This document shows, piece after piece, positions 1-21,006 of a DNA stretch of 25,004 bases; positions within the stretch are counted from its first letter, which is position 1, and each line of letters starts with the position of its first letter. This DNA is from Candidatus Delongbacteria bacterium (GTDB lineage: Bacteria > UBA4055). The stretch lies in NCBI GenBank assembly GCA_016937995.1, contig JAFGVM010000067.1:1-25004 (forward strand), written 5' to 3'. The position numbers were made by a program, and so were the translations under genes. The notes beneath the pieces were generated by a model. The model worked only from the letters and a program-made list of their open reading frames with translations. It was not told where the DNA came from and searched no databases.

Positions 1-83
1 GAAGTTAGAAGTTAGAAGTTAGAAGTTAGAAGTTAGAAGTTAGAAGTTAGAAGTTAGAAGTTAGAAGTTAGAAGTTAGAAGTA
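1..83 (+). repeat. Tandem array of a 7-bp unit (GAAGTTA)
   Basis: Eleven perfect GAAGTTA units run from 1 to 77, followed by a partial unit (GAAGTA). The array begins at the window edge, so its true length is unknown. It abuts and overlaps the GTAG head of the REP hairpin at 81. No coding function is apparent: a 7-bp period shifts the reading frame at each unit. Confidence 0.97.
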
Positions 84-164
84 GGGGCATAATTTATTAC
101 GCCCGAAACTTTACATATCACATGATGATTGGTATTATACGGGCGTTATGAATAACGCCCTTAC
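81..164 (+). repeat. Inverted pair of REP-like hairpins (BIME-like, copy A)
   Basis: Two hairpins face outward in 84 bp. The left one (81-105, head GTAG) has a GGGC..TAAT / ATTA..GCCC stem with one A-C mismatch. The right one (140-164, minus strand, head GTAA) has a perfect GGGCGTTA/TAACGCCC stem. A 34-bp AT-rich spacer separates them. The right head overlaps the TAA stop of the FMN-binding gene. The same element recurs inverted at 5152-5235. A GTAG head plus foldback is the known signature of REP sequences recognised by RAYT (IS200/Y1-type) transposases; assignment to that family is inference. Confidence 0.85.
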
Positions 165-1318
165 TTTTTTATTTTCACCCCATCTTTCAGCAGATCAAAG
201 AATTGCCCGGTGGGGCAGAGATAAAGGCACCACGGTTTTTTTACGAACAGTGAAACAATAAAAATAACTCCACTTCCAATCATTACTGTCATTGTTGCTG
301 AAGAGAAAAGAAATATTGTAAAAGGTTCTACTTCAGAAAGGTTTATTTTTAATGTGGTACTAACAATTATTATGATAGATATGAATATCAATAATCGTAT
401 CGTTCTTAATAATTTGATGATCTTTCCATTCAATTTTATCTTTTTAATCGGTAATTTACCAAGTAGTGCCTGAGTATTTCCGAAAGGGCAGATGTAACGG
501 CAGTATAAATGCTTGTTGAAAACCAGTGGGATCAGGACACTTACAGCAAGTAAAAATAGTGTAATATAAGTGGTAAAAATTGATAGTCCATGGATAGATA
601 AACTCTCTAAAAAATACATTGATATAAAATTACCTGATATTATTCCAAAGAATATAATAGATAATATTTGTATTATAAATTTATACTTATTTAATTTATT
701 TACAAAAATTGCTGTTATTGATAATATTAGAATTAAATATAACACAATTGAAACATTATGGTCAAGAAAGCTTATTTCGTTTTTATTTACTCCTGAAATA
801 TACTCTGTCTGACCTGTGAAAATGGATATCCTTTTGTCTATCATTTTGATGACAGAACGGGTTGTAATAGTTGCTCCGGAAATCACGTCTACTTTATGAT
901 CCTTAAGTTCTTCAATATTCTTACCGTTCCATGAATCAAAGAACTTCACATTTTGCAATCCTGATATCCATGCAGGTGTTTCTCTGTTATTCAATAGTCC
1001 GAGTCCAAGGATATTTTCATCCGTGTCAGCTATAATAGCTACCGGGATATTTCCACCGTAACCTCTTATTTCATCACAGAACGGGGAAGACAGGATGAAA
1101 TTTCCAATCTGGCTACCGTCTTTATCTAAAATCTTTGACCATTTCGTAGGGTAATTTGCCTTCTCAATTGAACTTGCAGCTGGAATTTTTTCTTTCACAA
1201 GATCGATCAGATTCTTATTCGCTTCGAAATCGAATTTTTCGCTTACTTCTTCTCTTGCAAGAATGAATACAATGATGAAAGCAATAATGACGGGTATTTT
1301 CAAAAGGTATTTTTTCAT
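161..1318 (-). CDS. Membrane flavoprotein: FMN-binding domain plus NosR-type CxxxCP iron-sulfur motifs
   Basis: 385 residues. An N-terminal membrane anchor (about 5-21) is followed by an extracytoplasmic FMN-binding domain (about 55-160) ending in VISGATITTR. That is the RnfG/NqrC/NosR-type site where ApbE attaches FMN to a Thr (probably T150). Four to five membrane segments follow (about 188-207, 213-236, 246-267, 305-323, 340-360), with two CxxxCP motifs (C273/C277 and C364/C368). This matches the membrane half of NosR/NapH-like electron carriers. The two soluble [4Fe-4S] ferredoxin clusters of full NosR are absent. By family it should move electrons across the membrane between a cytoplasmic donor and a periplasmic flavin; the partner is unknown. 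No nos, nap or apbE gene is in the window. There is no clear Shine-Dalgarno before the ATG. Its stop codon lies in a REP head. Confidence 0.85.
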   Translation of the reverse strand: MKKYLLKIPVIIAFIIVFILAREEVSEKFDFEANKNLIDLVKEKIPAASSIEKANYPTKWSKILDKDGSQIGNFILSSPFCDEIRGYGGNIPVAIIADTDENILGLGLLNNRETPAWISGLQNVKFFDSWNGKNIEELKDHKVDVISGATITTRSVIKMIDKRISIFTGQTEYISGVNKNEISFLDHNVSIVLYLILILSITAIFVNKLNKYKFIIQILSIIFFGIISGNFISMYFLESLSIHGLSIFTTYITLFLLAVSVLIPLVFNKHLYCRYICPFGNTQALLGKLPIKKIKLNGKIIKLLRTIRLLIFISIIIIVSTTLKINLSEVEPFTIFLFSSATMTVMIGSGVIFIVSLFVKKPWCLYLCPTGQFFDLLKDGVKIKK

Positions 1319-1428
1319 TACATTTATGCCCCGGTTATTTCAGAGTATGAATTATACGAAAAATGAGCTTAAAAGAAAATGATAAAAAACAGGGAGCCCG
1401 TATCACATAGAAATCATGATTAATATTA

Positions 1429-1457
1429 TTGCAAGTGGTCGGTATGTAGGATATATT
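1429..1457 (+). promoter_or_regulatory. Candidate sigma-70-like promoter of the endonuclease gene
   Basis: TTGCAA (1429-1434), a 17-bp spacer, then TATATT (1452-1457), about 31 bp before the ATG at 1489. The spacing is ideal and a strong ribosome site (AAGGAGAGGAG, 1473-1483) follows. A nearly identical TTGCGA-17-TATATT arrangement precedes the symporter gene at 24793. Confidence 0.5.
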
Positions 1458-1488
1458 ATTTATTTAAACAATAAGGAGAGGAGTGTTT

Positions 1489-4407
1489 ATGAAGACCAAA
1501 TTAATCGTATCAATATTATCGGTACTGCTTTTTACTTACAATGCAGTGGCAGATATACCTGCGGGTTACTATGATACTGCAACAGGTTCTGGATATACTC
1601 TTAAAACACAGCTTCATAATATCATTGATGATCATACTGTAGTATCTTACGATGCTCTTTGGACTCATTTTCAGAGTACAGATGTTGATCATTACTATGA
1701 GAACGATGGTAGTCCACTGGATATGTATTCAGAGGATCCGGATATGTCTGATCCATACAACTGGTCATTCGTATCTGATCAGTGTGGTTCATATACCGGC
1801 GAAGGAAGCTGTTACAACAGGGAGCACAGTTTCCCGAAAAGCTGGTTCAACGATGCCTCACCGATGTACTCGGATATATTCCATTTATATCTGACAGACG
1901 GATATGTCAATGGAAGAAGAAGTAATTATCCTTTCGGAGAGGTTGGTTCTGCGTCCTGGACCTCCCAAAATGGTTCAAAAGTTGGTTCTTCTTCTTATAC
2001 GGGATATACGGGTACGGTTTTTGAACCTATAGATGAATTTAAGGGTGATTTTGCAAGATCATATTTCTATATGGCTACAAGATACGAAGATGTTATCTCC
2101 GGATGGCCGGGGTCAGATATGCTTGACGGTTCATCAGACAAAGTTTTTACAGACTGGGCTTTAAATATGCTTATAGACTGGCATACAAATGACCCTGTTT
2201 CACAGAAGGAGATCGACAGAAATAATATCATCTATGATGATGTCCAGCACAACCGTAATCCTTTCATAGATAATCCAAACTATGTATATCAGATCTGGGG
2301 AGGAAATCCTGTTCCTTCATTAAACTTTGTTACAGCATCTCAGCAGATTGAAGAGAATATAGGTACTCTAACAGTGAATTTATCAATATCGGAAGCAATA
2401 CCTGATGCTGTAACTGCAAATCTGCTTATAACAGGTAGCGCAACTGATCCTGATGATTATACGATCTCATCTACAAGTGTCTTTTTCCCTGCAAGTTCAA
2501 CCGGGAACCAGTCTGCTGTACTTACGATAGAGGATGATCTTATACCCGAAGATTTTGAAACTATAACACTTACATTAGATAATCTTACAACTTCAAATCC
2601 TGATATTATTATTGGTCCGAGCAGTCAAATAACGATCACTATATATAACAGTGACGGTTTTGATGAAACTCCTCCGACTGTTTTGAGTCATACAATAGTT
2701 GATAGTACTAAATTAGTTCTCGAGTTCAGTGAAGATTTAGATCCTATAACCTCACAATTAGTAAGTAATTACGTTGTTGATAATGGTTTAGGTAATCCAG
2801 TCTCAGCAACTTTAGGATATCTTGGAGATTCTACTAAAGTAGTTTTGACTTTCGCATTAATAATGGAAGATGTTAGTTATCAGCTTACAATAAATAATGT
2901 TGAAGACACTGCATCAAATTCAATAGCAACAAATACTACCGTTGATTTTATTATTTCTGCTAGCGGGAGTGAGGGTTGGATCGAATATTTTGAGGATGCA
3001 ACTTTTTCAAGCTATTATACAGGTACAGGAACTTATCCGACAGGGGATTGGGACCTTCTCAGTGTTTACCTTGAACCTGCTTCTGAAGCATATGAAGGAG
3101 ATCACGCGGTCAGGATGAATGATGATACTGCAAATTCTTCGATCACTACTCCGGTAATTAATGGGGTCGATTCAGTTATCTTTTACTACCGAGCTTTAAA
3201 TCAGGAAGGTTCAGCTTCAACATTCTGGTTACAGAAGTCAGTTGATGGAGGAGCTTTTTCAAATGTTACAAGTCAGTCATATCAAAATAATACCTACGCT
3301 CAGTTCGCTTATAAAGTAAACGATTCCTCGGATAATATATTACTCAGAGTTTTGAATGATGATCAGGCAGGACATCTAATTGTTGATCAGTTCAAAGTAG
3401 TAACTTTTTCCGGACCTGTAGGAGATACAACTCCACCTACGATAACAGGTCATGAGATAGCTAACGGATCAGATATAATATTAGATTTTGATGAACTTCT
3501 TGATCCTATGACAGCTCAATTGGCAACTAATTACGTGCTTGATAATGCTGTAGGAAATCCTGACACTGCGGTTCTGGGTTACCTGGGTGATTTTACTAAG
3601 GTAGTATTATCGTTCTCACCATTTGTGGAAGATGTGAATTATCAGCTTACAATAAATAATGTTGAAGATAGTGCAGGAAATCCTATTGCTACAGATACTA
3701 CTGTTGATTTTATTATCAACTCAGGTGGTACAGGTGGAGGAGAGGGATGGATCGAAAGATTTGAAGATGGAACAGCTTTTGGGAGCTATTATACTGGCAC
3801 AGTTACTTACGGAACAGGAGATTGGGATCTTGTAAGTATTTACTTAGAAACTACTAATCCTCCGGCATATGAAGGAACTTATGCACTAAGGTTAAATGAT
3901 GACACACCTAACTCATCACTTACAACACCAGCTTTGAATGGAGTTGATTCTGTGATCTTTCAGTACAGAACTTTAAACAGTGAAGGTTCTCCTTCAACTT
4001 TCTGGTTACAGAAATCTGTTGATGGCGAAGCTTTTTCAAATGTTACAAGTCAGTCATATCAGGTCAATTCGTATAATGAATTTGCTTATAAAGTTGACGA
4101 TACATCGAATAACATTAAGCTAAGAGTTCTTAACGACGACCAGCTTGGACATCTTATCATTGATTACTTTAGAGTGGTAACTTTCCCTGTAGCAAATGAT
4201 CCTGATGCACCAGCCAATGTAGTAACAACTATTTCTGGAAGCAATCTTATCATAGACTGGGATGTTTCAGCAGGTGCGACGGGATATGATGTATATTCTT
4301 CTGATGATCCATATGGCACATTTACTCTTGCTGCTTCAGTAGGGACTAATCAATATACAGTTCCAGCTGATCAAGCTAAGTTGTTCTATTATATTGTCGC
4401 GAAATAA
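1489..4407 (+). CDS. Secreted endonuclease I with Calx-beta, duplicated Ig-like/jelly-roll modules and a C-terminal Fn3-like domain
   Basis: 972 residues. The signal peptide is MKTKLIVSILSVLLFTYNAVA. Residues about 22-275 form an endonuclease I (EndA/NucM, His-Me finger) domain with the NREHSFPKSW core (His about 113 catalytic) and two nearby Cys. Next come a Calx-beta domain (about 279-390), an Ig-like 'Big_5' domain (391-490), a jelly-roll-like module (493-643), second copies of both (645-745 and 750-902), and a terminal Fn3-like domain (about 904-972) ending in FYYIVAK. The protein should degrade extracellular DNA/RNA for nutrition. I see no type IX sorting tail, unlike the protein at 21157; the terminal Fn3-like domain may serve anchoring (inference). 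ATG 1489 is preferred over GTG 1483 because GGAG lies 5 bases before the ATG. Confidence 0.92.
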   Translation: MKTKLIVSILSVLLFTYNAVADIPAGYYDTATGSGYTLKTQLHNIIDDHTVVSYDALWTHFQSTDVDHYYENDGSPLDMYSEDPDMSDPYNWSFVSDQCGSYTGEGSCYNREHSFPKSWFNDASPMYSDIFHLYLTDGYVNGRRSNYPFGEVGSASWTSQNGSKVGSSSYTGYTGTVFEPIDEFKGDFARSYFYMATRYEDVISGWPGSDMLDGSSDKVFTDWALNMLIDWHTNDPVSQKEIDRNNIIYDDVQHNRNPFIDNPNYVYQIWGGNPVPSLNFVTASQQIEENIGTLTVNLSISEAIPDAVTANLLITGSATDPDDYTISSTSVFFPASSTGNQSAVLTIEDDLIPEDFETITLTLDNLTTSNPDIIIGPSSQITITIYNSDGFDETPPTVLSHTIVDSTKLVLEFSEDLDPITSQLVSNYVVDNGLGNPVSATLGYLGDSTKVVLTFALIMEDVSYQLTINNVEDTASNSIATNTTVDFIISASGSEGWIEYFEDATFSSYYTGTGTYPTGDWDLLSVYLEPASEAYEGDHAVRMNDDTANSSITTPVINGVDSVIFYYRALNQEGSASTFWLQKSVDGGAFSNVTSQSYQNNTYAQFAYKVNDSSDNILLRVLNDDQAGHLIVDQFKVVTFSGPVGDTTPPTITGHEIANGSDIILDFDELLDPMTAQLATNYVLDNAVGNPDTAVLGYLGDFTKVVLSFSPFVEDVNYQLTINNVEDSAGNPIATDTTVDFIINSGGTGGGEGWIERFEDGTAFGSYYTGTVTYGTGDWDLVSIYLETTNPPAYEGTYALRLNDDTPNSSLTTPALNGVDSVIFQYRTLNSEGSPSTFWLQKSVDGEAFSNVTSQSYQVNSYNEFAYKVDDTSNNIKLRVLNDDQLGHLIIDYFRVVTFPVANDPDAPANVVTTISGSNLIIDWDVSAGATGYDVYSSDDPYGTFTLAASVGTNQYTVPADQAKLFYYIVAK

Positions 4408-4414
4408 TAATACT

Positions 4415-4442
4415 GTAGGGTCGAACCTATGTGTTCGACCGG
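4415..4442 (+). repeat. REP-like hairpin, head GTAG
   Basis: GTAG is followed by a perfect 8-bp stem, GGTCGAAC (4419-4426) / GTTCGACC (4433-4440), with loop CTATGT. It sits 7 bp after the endonuclease stop. The stem sequence differs from the other copies while pairing is kept. Confidence 0.8.
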
Positions 4443-4451
4443 TGGGAATTT

Positions 4452-4478
4452 AAGGGCGTTTAAGGACGCCCTTTTTTT
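4452..4478 (+). terminator. Rho-independent terminator of the endonuclease gene
   Basis: Perfect 8-bp stem AAGGGCGT (4452-4459) / ACGCCCTT (4466-4473) with loop TTAAGG, then a run of T to 4478. The stem begins (T)TAAGGGCG like a REP head, so it may be a REP copy that serves as terminator. Confidence 0.85.
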
Positions 4479-4481
4479 AAT

Positions 4482-4658
4482 GCAACTCTTGGACTTGTAA
4501 TAGAAGTTGACGGTTCTAGTCATAAAAATAAGCAGGAATATGATCATCAAAGTCAGAAGTACCTTGAAAGTCTAGGTTTGAAAGTGCTTAGAGTAACTGA
4601 TATAGATGTTAAGAATAATATGGATGGAGTTTTGAGAAAATTAAAAAATAACCTCTAA
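4482..4658 (+). pseudogene. C-terminal remnant of a DUF559-type endonuclease-like protein
   Basis: A 58-codon open frame with no usable start codon encodes VIEVDGSSHKNKQEYD (about 6-21), then YLESLGLKVLRVTD and a closing helix. This is the conserved end of DUF559 (Vsr/PD-(D/E)XK-like) proteins, including the catalytic-type E-x-D-G-x-x-H strand. The N-terminal half is missing: upstream is a terminator hairpin, not coding sequence. The stop codon falls inside two 7-bp repeat units (4649-4662). I read it as a decayed gene cut at a repeat. DUF559 membership is recognised from sequence pattern only. Confidence 0.75.
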
Positions 4659-4662
4659 CTTC
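4649..4662 (-). repeat. Two 7-bp units (GAAGTTA, GAGGTTA)
   Basis: Read on the minus strand, the end of the DUF559 remnant contains GAAGTTA GAGGTTA. The first unit is identical to the unit of the array at 1-83. Confidence 0.55.
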
Positions 4663-4680
4663 TTATTTTTATTTTTAACA

Positions 4681-5076
4681 TCATCTCCACCTTACTTCAG
4701 CTTTGATCCCCTTTTTATGTTCAACTACGACAGTGCTGTCCAGTATCACACAGTTATAATCTTCAGGTAACTCAAGAAAATTTTCATTATTATAAATAAT
4801 CTTTTCACCGTAAACATATCTGGTGTTTATAAAACGCAATGATCCTGTTTGGGTGTAATAAGTTTCAGTATATTCCGCTATGGTGGAAGCAGTTTTTTGA
4901 GCTACTATTTTTAATGGCAGGGTAGGAGTAGGGGTAAGCAGGTTGAGAACTATTAGAAAAGTAGCTATGCCTGCAAAAGTTTTTCCGATAGATAAGATAA
5001 TGACTTTCTTTTTTGAGATCTGTTCCTCAGAAACTGACGGTCTTTCTTCAAAGTCTTCTTCATTATATTCGTACAA
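4681..5076 (-). CDS. Small single-pass membrane protein of unknown function
   Basis: 131 residues, family not recognised. An acidic N-terminus (residues 1-22, rich in E/D) and a KKK stop-transfer cluster precede one membrane segment (about 25-47). A proline/threonine-rich linker (TPTPTLPL) leads to a C-terminal domain of about 80 residues, predicted outside. The start is TTG at 5076: no ATG occurs in frame near the N-terminus, and AGGA lies 10 bases upstream. The gene is isolated between the DUF559 remnant and a repeat cluster. The outline is loosely like pilin-type or anchor proteins, but nothing specific supports that. Coding status is likely from the sensible membrane topology, not proven. 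Confidence 0.6.
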   Translation of the reverse strand: MYEYNEEDFEERPSVSEEQISKKKVIILSIGKTFAGIATFLIVLNLLTPTPTLPLKIVAQKTASTIAEYTETYYTQTGSLRFINTRYVYGEKIIYNNENFLELPEDYNCVILDSTVVVEHKKGIKAEVRWR

Positions 5077-5107
5077 ATTTTCGATATCCTATTTCTTTAT
5101 TACTCCT

Positions 5108-5137
5108 GGATTCCTCCCGATTTTCGGGAAGAATGAC
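5108..5137 (-). repeat. GTCAT-family hairpin
   Basis: Minus strand GTCATTC, then stem TCCCGA/TCGGGA with a 3-base loop, flanked by an outer ATTC/GAAT stem. It closely matches the hairpin at 14443-14473 in both head and stem. Confidence 0.75.
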
Positions 5138-5151
5138 GGTTATTTTTCAAT

Positions 5152-5235
5152 GTAGGGGCGTTATTCATAACGCCCTAAACATATGTATCATAATTGACAA
5201 TATTGTTATCCGGGCGTAATAAATTACGCCCCTAC
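5152..5235 (-). repeat. Inverted pair of REP-like hairpins (BIME-like, copy B)
   Basis: Left hairpin 5152-5175 (plus, head GTAG): perfect stem GGGCGTTA/TAACGCCC. Right hairpin 5211-5235 (minus, head GTAG): perfect stem GGGCGTAAT/ATTACGCCC. Total length is 84 bp, the same as copy A at 81-164, with the two hairpin types in reverse order. So this is the same element inserted in the opposite orientation. Confidence 0.88.
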
Positions 5236-5269
5236 ATTTTCCATTTTCAACTTTCAATTCTCAATTTTT
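5235..5269 (-). repeat. Heptad array abutting REP copy B
   Basis: On the minus strand five 7-bp units run directly into the GTAG head: AAAAATT, GAGAATT, GAAAGTT, GAAAATG, GAAAATG. Copy A at 1-83 has the same heptad-then-GTAG order, with a different unit sequence. Confidence 0.7.
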
Positions 5270-14530: not shown

Positions 14531-14558
14531 TCGGAGACGAATGGGAATCGTCCCCTAC
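14531..14558 (-). repeat. REP-like hairpin, head GTAG
   Basis: Minus strand GTAG, then stem GGGGACGA / TCGTCTCC with one G-T pair and a 7-base loop. Confidence 0.72.
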
Positions 14559-19286: not shown

Positions 19287-19310
19287 GGGTTCAAGATGTT
19301 GAACCCTTAC
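19287..19310 (-). repeat. REP-like hairpin, head GTAA
   Basis: Minus strand GTAA, then perfect 8-bp stem GGGTTCAA / TTGAACCC with a 4-base loop. Confidence 0.82.
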
Positions 19311-19319
19311 AATCACCTT

Positions 19320-19354
19320 GGACATTGGATGTTCCGTGTTGAATATTGGATATT
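19320..19354 (+). repeat. Five heptad units
   Basis: GGACATT, GGATGTT, CCGTGTT, GAATATT, GGATATT in perfect 7-bp register, placed between two REP-like hairpins. Confidence 0.65.
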
Positions 19355-19356
19355 GG

Positions 19357-20961: not shown

Positions 20962-20978
20962 AGGGTAAATATAATAAA

Positions 20979-21006
20979 GAAATTAGAATTTAGAAATTAG
21001 AATTTG
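20979..21006 (+). repeat. Four heptad units
   Basis: GAAATTA, GAATTTA, GAAATTA, GAATTTG in perfect register, lying in the gap between the lipoprotein gene (minus) and the T9SS protein gene (plus). Confidence 0.7.

Follow-up and report, generated by a model that had tools for sequence, protein, structure and literature searches.

TnpA_REP relies on GTAG for recognition, where the tetranucleotide probably serves as a guide, and cleaves at a CT or sometimes a CA dinucleotide that lies outside the palindrome, on its 5′ or 3′ side (PMC8266576). GTAG REPs and the REPINs built from them are perfect or near-perfect palindromes that carry a GTAG tag and are located in intergenic DNA, and the elements of the present locus share these properties. 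The doublets found here likewise resemble REPINs in their inverted pairing, short spacer, and single-hairpin fold, and RAYT-like genes, some of which carry REPs, are present in the genus as in RAYT systems (PMC3116915, PMC3733652, PMC2817692, PMC8266576). The host lineage belongs to none of the phyla for which PMC3733652 lists GTAG repeats. Unlike known REPIN/RAYT systems, the palindromes described here have a period-7 leader on their head side, occur mostly as singlets, and share one leader among several palindrome families.

Tandem heptamers have their own literature. The small dispersed repeats (SDRs) of cyanobacteria, which go back to Elhai et al. 2008, are reportedly embedded in tandem heptamers. 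Compared by this description, both are very small, mobile-looking elements with tandem heptamers, with the difference being that SDRs are said to lie inside heptamer runs, whereas the heptads here are one-sided and the tail side stays at background. Heptameric intergenic repeats are also represented by the cyanobacterial STRR, by GGGAATC in Xanthomonas and GGGGA(C/T)T in Nostoc (PMC4692102), and by TAACTGA in Beggiatoaceae (PMC4679880). The present arrays resemble all of these in being intergenic, built of 7-bp units, and much more frequent than expected by chance, but the known examples use one or few units, whereas at least 23 unit sequences occur here in one genome and are linked to GTAG palindromes. 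PMC4692102 reports that heptamers have no general link to mobile elements. REPs and RAYTs are thus known already, as are intergenic heptamers, and the elements are best filed as GTAG REPs/REPINs of a RAYT-like system with unusual head-side heptads; no description of a one-sided, modular heptad-REP link in this lineage was found in the literature searched. The reading preferred here, to which about an even chance is given, is that of RAYT-mobilized GTAG REPs and REPINs with exchangeable heptad leaders, the heptads being linked on the head side only.

The window, i.e., the whole stretch of DNA analyzed (25,004 nt), is the entire contig C12 of G000 (G0 in the following), a fragmented MAG of 2.75 Mb in 99 contigs from a Candidatus Delongbacteria bacterium. 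Its recG protein shares 88% identity with recG of the Candidatus Delongbacteria MAG GLR157. G001 (G1) and G002 (G2), relatives within the genus, serve as comparison species. A preliminary description had reported two 84-bp inverted pairs of GTAG palindromes in opposite orientations, which are found at exactly 81-164 and 5152-5235. The first is composed of a plus-strand REP of the AATTTATT type (81-104, GTAG head at 81-84), a spacer (105-140, plus strand), and a minus-strand REP of the TTATTCATAA type (141-164) with a degenerate head, GTAA, at 161-164 in the minus-strand reading. The second starts with a plus-strand REP of the TTATTCATAA type (5152-5175, GTAG head at 5152-5155), which is followed by a spacer (5176-5211, plus strand) and a minus-strand REP of the AATTTATT type (5212-5235, minus-strand GTAG head at 5232-5235). 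The hairpins face outward around the spacer as described, but the spacer measures 36 nt in both doublets instead of 34 to 35 nt when the GTAG heads are counted into the palindromes. All four palindromes fit GGGCGTWATNNATWACGCCC with at most one mismatch, compared to 0.02 expected from shuffles of the window. As single strands, both 84-mers form a single long hairpin, with -14.8 kcal/mol (z -4.0) for the first and -18.6 kcal/mol (z -5.1) for the second, and no shuffle equaled them in stability. The two 84-bp units are best read as REPINs, that is, inverted doublets of a GTAG-tagged REP family.

In each unit, the AATTTATT-type palindrome is the one whose GTAG directly adjoins a period-7 array, again in agreement with the earlier account. 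At the first unit, 11.7 fully identical (100%) copies of GAAGTTA (1-82, plus strand) run into the GTAG head; as the window is an entire contig, this array is truncated where the contig begins. The second array is degenerate (5236-5268, 4.7 units, 80% identity) and reads TGAGAAT TGAAAGT TGAAAAT GGAAAAT into GTAG on the minus strand. The 25-nt heptad-side ends of the two units are 96% complementary to one another.

The window harbors further elements of both kinds. GTAG-tagged palindromes are located at 4415-4440 (plus strand, GTAGGGTCGAACCTATGTGTTCGACC, without heptads) and, read directly, at 14533-14558 (minus strand, GTAGGGGACGATTCCCATTCGTCTCC). A heptad-phased leader copy of the AACACGG type followed by a GTAA-headed palindrome (GTAAGGGTTCAACATCTTGAACCC) occupies 19287-19355 on the minus strand, and an AGAAATT/AGAATTT array at 20978-21005 (plus strand) has no palindrome that could be found at its end. 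T-runs follow several palindromes (window 4453-4478; REPs at C56:26482, C81:56956, and C2:67218) and could be intrinsic terminators. The gene at 1483-4407 encodes a large predicted secreted protein whose N-terminal region resembles, by eye, an endonuclease I-type nuclease, and contains long internal repeats with 74% and 71% DNA identity.

Across the whole genome, the REP pattern with up to three mismatches yields 37 forward and 33 reverse matches, in which near-palindromic REPs may count on both strands, and the reversed control yields 0. Among 42 distinct copies read with their flanks, most have a GTAG head and only four doublets are formed, all of them head-outward and each combining a TTATTCATAA-type with a AATTTATT-type REP. 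These copies conform to GTAG REPs as palindromes of 20 to 40 bp with GTAG at one end that are repeated and extragenic. GTAG-tagged palindromes of further families are also present (46 listings in 765 kb). Both doublets outside the window are without heptads, leaving heptads at two of the four, and most heptad-linked palindromes are singlets of many families; the earlier proposal of doublet plus heptads as one defined element therefore does not hold. Four loci of G0 (C6:35895, C6:40276, C41:17156, and C14:7103) share one order of parts: the REP, then a short run rich in A, then a further hairpin module that is itself dispersed (GATTGCCAC..GCAATGACA).

Besides the palindromes, the intergenic DNA holds heptad arrays, which form an independent class of repeat and evolve fast. 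The 83 kb of noncoding sequence sampled contain 43 period-7 arrays with 23 distinct units, where a dinucleotide shuffle gives 0.6 arrays. Most stand alone, and by inspection about 9 of about 40 adjoin a GTAG palindrome. A single ancestral consensus, RTNRKRR, appears only weakly on distinct units (10/23 compared to 5.4 for shuffled units; PWM fit -131.0 versus -139.3, sd 3.55, shuffled, best of 100 shuffles -129.0) and is not claimed. GTAG hairpins follow the strand of transcription (23 versus 6, p=0.002); the heptads do not (14 versus 15). Heptad arrays break contigs in the fragmented MAG, and four contig ends among the sampled contigs fall inside them (C12:1, C73:1, C73:52859, and C66:1 in G0). 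C73 and C12 may be neighbors, because the C73 end and the C12 start share the GAAGTTA array in the same orientation. Convergent pairs of arrays with the G-rich strand inward, a short spacer, and no palindrome are located at C66:15107-15181, C66:2266-2336, and C73:27643-27691 of G0.

The two repeat classes are associated in a directional manner. The statistics cover 765 kb of chosen large contigs (28% of the genome) and REP-centered stretches with crude gene calls. The main test asks whether lag-7 identity reaches 0.6 or more over the 42 nt preceding the GTAG of noncoding hairpins of any family; this threshold and that of 0.55 for the focal family were both set after examples had been seen. The head side is rich in period 7 in 8 of 40 noncoding GTAG hairpins (20%) and the tail side in 1 of 40 (2.5%), compared to 1% for non-GTAG hairpins and 1.5% for random noncoding sites. 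Lags 6 and 8 show no excess, with none reaching the threshold, and the mean lag-7 identity is significant at p<5e-5. For the focal REP family by itself, 5 of 36 head flanks are period-7 rich against a background of 1.7% (p=4e-4, threshold 0.55). Heptads and GTAG palindromes thus co-occur, in fixed orientation and on the GTAG side only, far above what their separate densities predict, the comparison against which the preliminary description had proposed to judge the association. About 70 to 80% of GTAG palindromes lack a heptad partner, and most heptad arrays likewise lack a palindrome. The two element types might simply collect in the same permissive spaces after stop codons and have no physical connection, and both do lie near gene ends (median distances on the 5′ side of 19.5 nt for arrays and 32 nt for hairpins). 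This by-product explanation is nevertheless disfavored and hardly probable: the background was itself noncoding DNA, the effect is confined to the head side, to one orientation, and to lag 7, and leader copies have one exact joint in common.

This joint is best seen in a 33-nt heptad-phased leader of non-identical units (AATATCC AATATCC AACACGG AATATCC AATGATG AAG), which is present in 12 copies with up to three mismatches, the reversed control giving 0. In 7 of the 12 copies the leader passes at a fixed joint, AAG|TAG, into a palindrome, which in one case is degenerate; the palindromes represent at least three families. Another leader, AGTGATAAGTT..AAGTGGTTA|GTAGGGGCG, stands before the focal REP both on C75 of G0 and on C31 of G2, at loci that are unrelated. 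The joint between leader and palindrome is precise while the partners vary, as follows from the sharing of AAG|TAG by several families and the recurrence of the second leader at unrelated loci. In composites with heptads the inner joint is fixed and the array varies in length and sequence; no outer element end, target duplication, or excision product was demonstrated. The heptad-GTAG joint was not found in viral contigs, nor was the reversed-heptad control pattern, and the leader-REP sequence was not found in plasmids.

The fixed joint can also be explained if heptad arrays or leaders came first and served as preferred landing sites, with palindromes inserting at a GTAG-like position at the 3′ end of the array. 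This model would account for the way in which palindromes of at least three families adjoin one leader at an identical base, an observation that fits co-transfer equally well. The left flank would be target DNA under a scheme like that of IS200/IS605, and at the site labeled B, G2 harbors a weak heptad-like stretch without a palindrome. Removal of 84 bp and one AT at the second element of the window also restores the heptad phase with 6/7 cross-junction matches, but this is a single case that would arise by chance in roughly 3% (rough estimate). Insertion into an array should moreover leave heptads on the tail side, which is at background (1/40), and palindrome-free leaders mostly have no GTAG at the joint position. 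The landing-site model is considered possible but less likely than co-transfer, and the heptads are tentatively taken to be a moving component rather than a favored place of insertion.

Comparison of the three species illustrates that the parts come and go. At the orthologous junction C81:58,056-58,103, G0 contains GTCAGAA-type heptads with GTAGGGGCTTATTACTATAAGCCC and G1 contains GTGGTTA-type heptads with GTAGAGACGAGATTTATCACGTCTC, in the same place, order, and orientation, but with heptads and palindromes of different families; G2 is empty there, and its genes are nearly contiguous. At C66:28,444, G0 carries heptads and a palindrome, G2 is empty, and G1 has other palindromes. G2 has an insert made up of a REP alone that G0 lacks, and a heptad-only array of G0 is absent from the orthologous site in G1 with no palindrome involved. 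Since differences in REPs only, heptads only, and composites all occur between species, either part can be gained or lost without the other, and a whole composite can be replaced with its arrangement kept. The empty sites anticipated in relatives therefore exist at these two composite loci, but no clean one was found for the window copy at 5152-5235 in the relative compared, because its gene order beyond recG differs. The earlier idea that the architecture itself is the repeated unit is borne out insofar as arrangement is kept over sequence at one orthologous site; the doublet with heptads is not that unit.

The difference in heptad sequence between G0 and G1 at an orthologous site is also predicted by local regrowth, in which the palindromes would give rise to the heptads: the hairpin would stall replication, and a 7-bp array would grow on one side of it by slippage. 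Such a process would explain arrays on one side only, and 7-mers have been proposed to originate from a polymerase footprint (cited in PMC4692102). Most arrays, however, have no adjoining hairpin, one differs between species without any hairpin, and the AACACGG leader recurs as a conserved sequence at dispersed places instead of having grown locally as a repeat, which makes slippage an unlikely source of the association.

RAYT-like genes that could mobilize the palindromes are found in all three species. G0 harbors an intact RAYT-like gene (C41:25191-25772, 205 aa) and decayed copies elsewhere, and further RAYT-like genes are present in G1 and G2. NF047646, the NCBIfam RAYT model, is the best match for two G1 proteins with 53 and 60 bits, under its cut-off of 80; the scan covers these two proteins only. 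Two REPs of the focal family are embedded in frame in the RAYT-like ORF on C84 of G2 (205 aa), where they lie between the HUH motif and the tyrosine motif; a third member of the family follows shortly after the ORF. The orthologous place in G0 holds a decayed RAYT and no REP. The intact G0 gene carries a REP type other than the focal one, and no focal-family REP linked to a RAYT gene was seen in G0. By this arrangement of sequences, the C84 locus ties the focal REP family to a putative RAYT within the genus. GTAG/GCAG palindromes, or coding traces resembling them, lie in frame between the HUH and tyrosine motifs of the RAYT-like ORFs L155:1597-2211 (G2, C84), L291, L292, and L298. The single IS200/IS605-type HUH Y1 transposase of G0 (C56, NF033573) has GTAG beside the hairpin at its right end and was rejected as the cognate RAYT on account of its type and of end hairpins that differ from those of the focal REP.

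In the preferred reading of RAYT-mobilized palindromes with exchangeable leaders, RAYT-type HUH transposases of the genus would spread the GTAG-tagged REP family through intergenic DNA, and heptad arrays would become linked to the palindromes on the head side only. The enzyme would cut at CT or CA outside GTAG and palindrome, with GTAG as the guide. Because the cut would fall outside the palindrome, the stretch between the 5′ cut and GTAG would travel with it. Heptad leaders are mostly without CT and nearly C-free on the strand reading into GTAG, so leader and palindrome could move as one piece by a cut upstream of the leader. C-poor leaders permit such co-transfer but are no proof of it. Since the absence of CT results in part from the selection of C-poor period-7 windows, a CT-free leader is no independent mark of a boundary, and CT at 44-53 nt upstream was discarded as the element boundary, being inseparable from the choice of 42-nt C-poor windows. 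Later exchange would yield new leader-palindrome combinations. A more specific form of this reading, put forward tentatively and with clearly less than even confidence, makes the leaders interchangeable passengers of RAYT-mobilized palindromes that are cut outside the leader. The architecture would then persist at a site while both sequences are replaced, because leaders and palindromes reassort as modules.

Bacterial tandem heptamers have no accepted origin or function, and the copying and insertion of REPs are still open. The one-sided heptad-REP link, together with RAYT genes and several empty sites in the same genus, makes it possible to test concretely if REPs carry heptads along, target them, or give rise to them. 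Elements of REP size may extend beyond the palindrome.
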